From Thermococcus argininiproducens (GTDB taxonomy: Archaea; Methanobacteriota_B; Thermococci; Thermococcales; Thermococcaceae), in the NCBI RefSeq assembly GCF_023746595.1, contig NZ_CP080572.1, positions 682,001 through 746,000 on the forward strand: a stretch of DNA of 64,000 nt. Direction: 5' to 3'. A program made the translations under genes and the position numbers. Below, one piece after another: positions 13,481 to 47,083 of the stretch (positions are counted from its first letter, which is position 1; every line of letters begins with the position of its first letter). The notes below the pieces were generated by a model. It made no database searches and was not told the DNA's origin. It was given only the letters and a program-made list of their open reading frames with translations.

Positions 13481-13744
13481 GGGGGTCTCGGACTATAGGG
13501 TGGAGCGCCCGAATGAGGGTGCCCAAAGCCCAGGCATAAAACGGCGGCGTCGAGGGGAGTGGGTGCAAAGCACCCAACAATGAACCCCGCCCTCCAGCCT
13601 TGGGCACAGCAAAGTGCGCTCCCAAGGAAACCCGAAAGGGGACCCCTTGGGGGTAAGGCAGGCCCAACACCCCGACCAAACCCCGGATGGGTTTTATGGT
13701 ACTCCCTTTTGAAGGGAGTCCCACCGGCCGTACTCCTAATAGCA
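13481..13744 (+). other. Transcribed leader of the rRNA operon
   Basis: From about 13483 the sequence becomes very GC-rich, marking the external transcribed spacer of the rRNA precursor. It contains the upstream arm of the 16S processing stem (13658-13695) and a perfect 8-bp hairpin (ACTCCCTT / AAGGGAGT, 13701-13719) just before the mature 16S 5' end. No coding frame here is plausible. Confidence 0.75.
13658..13695 (+). repeat. 16S processing stem, upstream arm
   Basis: This GC-rich segment (AGACCCAACACCCC-like core, then CCCCGGATGGGTTT) is complementary to 15238-15275 downstream of 16S. The arms pair to close the long stem cut by the archaeal splicing endonuclease at a bulge-helix-bulge during pre-16S excision. 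Confidence 0.8.
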
Positions 13745-15477: not shown

Positions 15478-18512
<3,035 letters not shown>

Positions 18513-47018: not shown

Positions 47019-47083
47019 AAAGGCCTCAGCTAACCCTCTTTTCTTCATCTTATCAGAGTGGCTAACGTTCGTCATCGGCCAAT
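47019..47083 (-). ncRNA. C/D box guide sRNA
   Basis: On the minus strand the order is stem GGCC, box C ATGACGA (47075-47069), 12-nt guide, box D' CTGA (47056-47053), spacer TAAG, box C' ATGAAGA (47048-47042), 12-nt guide, box D CTGA (47029-47026), stem GGCC. The two 12-nt guides and 4-nt central spacer are exactly the archaeal geometry. Boxes C and C' each differ at one base from RUGAUGA. The D guide AAAGAGGGTTAG pairs over 10 bp with 23S 17501-17510, setting 2'-O-methylation at C17504 (E. coli C1920). The D' guide has no convincing rRNA target. Confidence 0.8.

Follow-up and report, generated by a model that had tools for sequence, protein, structure and literature searches.

The window, by which we mean the whole 64,000-nucleotide stretch of Thermococcus argininiproducens DNA analysed here, contains a complete C/D box sRNA on the minus strand, running from 47080 to 47022, with its boxes in the order C, D', C', D. 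The tmk (thymidylate kinase) gene sits immediately upstream, on the same strand. The features of the sRNA gene are as follows; the closing stem, the boxes, the guides and the spacer were read directly from the sequence.

47022-47080, minus strand: sR34 C/D box sRNA gene (Rfam RF01273), including the terminal GGCC/GGCC stem
47080-47077 paired with 47025-47022, minus strand: closing stem, GGCC with GGCC
47069-47075, minus strand: box C, ATGACGA
47057-47068, minus strand: D' guide, ACGTTAGCCACT, 12 nt; best candidate target, 8 bp, at 23S 17776-17783
47053-47056, minus strand: box D', CTGA
47049-47052, minus strand: D'-C' spacer, TAAG, 4 nt (family range 2-4 nt)
47042-47048, minus strand: box C', ATGAAGA
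47030-47041, minus strand: D guide, AAAGAGGGTTAG, 12 nt; positions 2-11 pair with 23S 17501-17510
47026-47029, minus strand: box D, CTGA

The four boxes, two 12-nt guides and 4-nt spacer of the original prediction are all present, on the minus strand. Box C and box C' each have one mismatch with respect to the RUGAUGA consensus. The RNA has the characters by which archaeal C/D box sRNAs are recognised: the boxes, guides of 12 and 12 nt, a spacer of 4 nt and complementarity of the D guide to rRNA. The Rfam sR34 model (RF01273) matched positions 47024-47079 with a score of 69.7 bits (cut-off 40, E=5e-11); the model was covered in full (positions 1-54), with a score above the gathering threshold. 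The window RNA has its guides, box order, length and full-length, above-cut-off match in common with the sR34 RNAs of Pyrococcus and Thermococcus. It differs from most members of the family in having a spacer of 4 nt rather than 2-3 nt, and from most Thermococcus orthologs in having a canonical CTGA box D, whereas theirs is CCGA, as it also is in some Pyrococcus orthologs, those nearest the Rfam consensus. The window contains a further guide RNA, the H/ACA guide RNA Pab19, at 13505-13608 on the plus strand, directly 5' of the 16S gene and probably within the rRNA operon leader.

sR34 was found in 92 of the 94 Thermococcales genomes searched, including all 74 of those of good quality, and in none of the 14 control genomes searched. 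In the 32 distinct sR34 sequences, positions 2-11 of the D guide (AAGAGGGTTA) are invariant, positions 1 and 12 being variable, and positions 2-11 of the D' guide (CGTTAGCCAC) are equally invariant. Of the 43 loci examined, 24 had tmk in their flanks, with four genera represented in addition to that of the window, and the window gene occupies this orthologous position, a supporting rather than a strictly defining character of the family. At L038, L039 and L043, the sR34 gene is flipped relative to tmk, yet still adjoins it. A second sR34-like RNA with altered guides (AACGTCAGCACG, AAGGGACTTG) occurs (L049-L056) in several genomes, which belong to the genus of the window and to another Thermococcales genus. 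We also observed that, at the kink-turn position of sR34, the fifth base of C/C' co-varies with the second base of D/D', with the joint states U.U, C.U, C.C and G-C, and U.U, A-U and G.U; the corresponding sites in the window are 47069-47075 with 47026-47029 and 47042-47048 with 47053-47056.

An ortholog was found at 1226844-1226898 in T. kodakarensis, in a genome that we take to be that of strain KOD1. A 62-nt RNA of this species, named sR41, has been described at 1226838-1226899, with a start site at 1226903, and is represented by 1,967 small-RNA reads and 31 circular reads, with 0 circular reads in an RNA ligase knock-out (PMC9014305). By position, sR41 is the sR34 ortholog, which is therefore expressed and circularised in T. 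kodakarensis. The RNA labelled “sR34” in the same study (PMC9014305) was rejected as the ortholog because its coordinates differ.

The D guide forms 10 Watson-Crick base pairs with 23S rRNA, and the N+5 rule places 2'-O-methylation on a cytidine that lies within this run, on a Watson-Crick pair. The corresponding features are:

17501-17510, plus strand: 23S rRNA target, TAACCCTCTT, covering the 3' strand of helix 69 and the start of the next segment
17504, plus strand: predicted 2'-O-methylated cytidine, from the N+5 rule and the alignment with E. coli 23S

Both the 10-bp match to 17501-17510 and the N+5 position at C17504 had been anticipated in the original prediction, and our pairing check reproduced them. 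The equivalence of C17504 to C1920 of E. coli 23S was borne out by the alignment, after correction for the numbering of the E. coli strain used, which is ahead by one over this part of the molecule. Of 400 random 12-mers from the window, five had a 10-bp Watson-Crick match that took in N+5 somewhere in 16S and 23S, as did one of 400 shuffles of the D guide. By itself, the pairing is modestly significant, and it is because of the Rfam match and the conservation that we consider the window RNA to be, on sequence grounds, a real sRNA and a member of the already named, curated family sR34. The invariant block AAGAGGGTTA coincides exactly with the predicted 10-bp duplex, and this conservation is far stronger evidence than the pairing itself. 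A scan of 16S, 23S and the 45 tRNAs gave no better match to the D guide.

We searched a multi-genome contig collection for the pattern of a box, the exact 10-nt guide and a box. At least 118 loci matched, where chance alone would give about 11 over the entire collection. About 109 of the 118 matches listed were archaeal and nine were bacterial; every archaeal match listed has a 12-nt guide. The archaeal matches listed come from Thermoplasmatota, Methanomassiliicoccales, Thalassarchaeaceae, Methanococcales, DHVE2, Micrarchaeota, Altiarchaeota, Njordarchaeota, Aigarchaeota and Thermococcales. At the level of the phylum, a C1920 guide was found in 25 of the 27 genomes of the phylum containing Methanocaldococcus (one match for the reversed-pattern control), in 38 of the 250 genomes sampled from that containing Thermoplasmatota and in six of the 250 from that containing Aigarchaeota (no match for the control in either case); these counts are lower bounds because the patterns are strict. 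The exact match was absent from the other 212 and 244 genomes, respectively, of the last two samples, and, within the class to which the window belongs, from all 21 genomes outside Thermococcales. Among the matches listed, none is from a named haloarchaeon, and a haloarchaeal list of 23S modifications includes Gm1909 in helix 69, with no Cm1920 (PMC2584109).

The guide changes together with its target. The 23S sequence TAACCC accompanies the guide GGGTTA in the window, in an altiarchaeote (L223) and in Methanocaldococcus (L263), and TGACCC accompanies GGGTCA in six genomes; the exception is one Aigarchaeota genome, in which GGGTTA faces TGACCC, giving a G.U pair. We regard this co-change as the best evidence that the guides would serve the C1920 site. 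The original claim, that the locus encodes a C/D guide for the C1920 equivalent, is supported by the Rfam family, the alignment, the 10 invariant positions and the co-change elsewhere; beyond that claim, the RNA belongs to a named family that spans Thermococcales, and guides for C1920 occur widely among other lineages of archaea.

The RNAs carrying these guides differ between lineages. Thermococcales carry the C1920 guide at D, in sR34. In 69 of the loci listed, mostly related to Thermoplasmatota, it lies at D', and the other guide is CCCTATGAG-like. This partner guide, CCCTATGAGTG, is highly conserved (L060, L079, L102 and about 66 others), and no target for it was found in the 16S, 23S or tRNA sequences at hand. 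A role as a guide for C34 of tRNA-Met was rejected for want of a match in the tRNA-Met anticodon loops found, and a 16S target, prompted by a match in Methanothermococcus, was rejected because the Thermoplasmatota 16S sequences have no matching site. The order of the guides is swapped in two of the loci listed (L090 and L113, one of them labelled Micrarchaeota), in which the C1920 guide is accompanied by a CCTTATGAGTG partner; relative to Thermoplasmatota, the arrangement resembles a circular permutation of the RNA. In ten of the Methanococcales-type loci listed, the partner is ACTTACCCGA. In Methanocaldococcus (L263, L176), the second guide has a match of 10-11 bp to 23S at a point 29 nt 3' of C1920, and the predicted pairings make this RNA a classical, close double guide. 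Finally, a tRNA intron carries the C1920 guide in five of the DHVE2-type loci listed and, with a one-base variant, in a sixth (together L064, L074, L089, L100, L118 and L147). We take the tRNA concerned to be tRNA-Trp (anticodon CCA); ARAGORN labelled it Arg because the anticodon was read one base off. The C/D RNA in this archaeal tRNA-Trp intron is a different carrier from sR34: its C1920 guide is at D', rather than at D, and its D guide matches C34 of its own tRNA. Of the carriers scanned, three (L096, L169 and L064) scored above the cut-off as Rfam sR3, L064 alone of these being a tRNA intron. The C1920 mark thus appears, from the distribution of its predicted guides, to have been kept while the carrier RNA changed, and what extends beyond the known family is a set of putative C1920 guides, over several lineages and carriers, that co-change with their target.

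We consider it very probable that the D guide of sR34 directs the predicted 2'-O-methylation of C17504 (E. coli C1920). We infer that L7Ae, Nop5 and fibrillarin would assemble on the C/D and C'/D' kink-turns of the RNA, that the D guide would pair across helix 69 while the pre-23S rRNA is unfolded, and that fibrillarin would methylate the ribose of C17504, at the subunit interface. The genes for fibrillarin and Nop5 are adjacent in the host genome (Pfam scores of 343.8 and 254.1 bits). The location of the target inside helix 69 implies that pairing requires unfolded rRNA, and we counted this against methylation. In another reading, sR34 is mainly a chaperone of rRNA folding, its D guide holding the helix 69 strand open and the methylation of C1920 being incidental or absent. 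Dual-guide sRNAs were proposed to act as chaperones in the text of Dennis et al. 2015 (PMC4644070), and the D guide does span the helix 69 junction. A pure chaperone, however, need not keep exactly 12 nt between its boxes, as all the archaeal C1920 guides listed do, and this interval fixes N+5 on the same C; we therefore judge this second reading improbable. That the 23S match is fortuitous, the D guide serving another RNA, seems to us more improbable still, to the point of being barely credible: 10-bp runs do occur for about 0.25-1.25% of comparable 12-mers, but a chance match would account neither for an invariant block with exactly the limits of the duplex nor for the joint change of guide and target between lineages, and nothing better was found in the rRNAs and tRNAs scanned.

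An additional site for the D' guide would be compatible with methylation of C17504 by the D guide. We compared the D' guide, allowing for G.U pairs, with 16S, 23S and the genome's full set of 45 tRNAs, and its best rRNA match was 8 Watson-Crick bp at 23S 17776-17783, in a register placing N+5 at G17778 (approximately E. coli G2201). The invariance of the D' guide would be consistent with activity of both guides and with methylation of G17778. However, 71 of 400 random 12-mers match rRNA equally well, and the pairing there fails at positions 2 and 11, both of them invariant, so that we consider this second methylation possible but rather unlikely. Pairing over the full ten invariant D' positions was seen with none of the genome's rRNAs or tRNAs, and the best match, of 8 bp, is not significant. 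The genome does contain an exact 10-nt complement at another place; it was rejected as a target because it is antisense to an open reading frame and not an RNA gene.

Methylation of C17504 guided by the D guide of sR34 would have a counterpart in bacteria, in which C1920 is methylated by TlyA (PMC12805891, PMC5778110). The contrast drawn with TlyA in the original prediction agrees with these reports and with our profile search, which revealed no TlyA in the host genome (best score 23.3 bits, cut-off 185.8). Two weak matches to the TlyA profile were rejected, one being an S4-domain protein and the other an unrelated methyltransferase. TlyA and fibrillarin are related as Rossmann-fold methyltransferases (PMC5778110), and the nucleotide and type of modification are the same for TlyA and the predicted sR34 target, but TlyA is made of protein only and recognises the site itself, whereas at sR34 an RNA guide would pick the site. 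Bacillus subtilis that has lost TlyA is cold-sensitive, defective in subunit assembly and resistant both to aminoglycosides and to cyclic peptide antibiotics (PMC12805891). The C1920 equivalents of Arabidopsis chloroplast and mitochondrial rRNA are also methylated (PMC8053127).

A prediction for C1920 may already figure in the original Pyrococcus sRNA paper (Gaspin 2000) or in the supplementary tables of Dennis et al. 2015 (PMC4644070). The main text of this latter pan-archaeal prediction presents helix 69, in which the sR34 target also lies, as a hotspot of dense predicted Nm in hyperthermophilic archaea; the survey, as set out there, does not include Thermococcales, and this main text does not name C1920 (PMC4644070). 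It describes M. maripaludis as a mesophile with only about seven C/D sRNAs (PMC4644070).

Taking these lineages together, we lean towards the view that archaea have widely kept a 2'-O-methyl mark at C1920, the guides for which move between unrelated carriers (sR34, the tRNA-Trp intron, the double guides of Methanococcales and Thermoplasmatota, and the guide-swapped form of Micrarchaeota), such that the site rather than the carrier would be selected, in convergence with bacteria and plant organelles. The mark would vanish cleanly on deletion of a single small RNA gene in a laboratory archaeon. Methanococcales, including mesophiles, appear to retain the guide in nearly all the genomes searched, which suggests a role that goes further than heat stability. 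C1920 is a helix 69 nucleotide of the subunit interface, and if archaea use RNA guides and bacteria TlyA, then two unrelated targeting systems would have converged on one ribose, which would argue that the methyl group does something in the ribosome.
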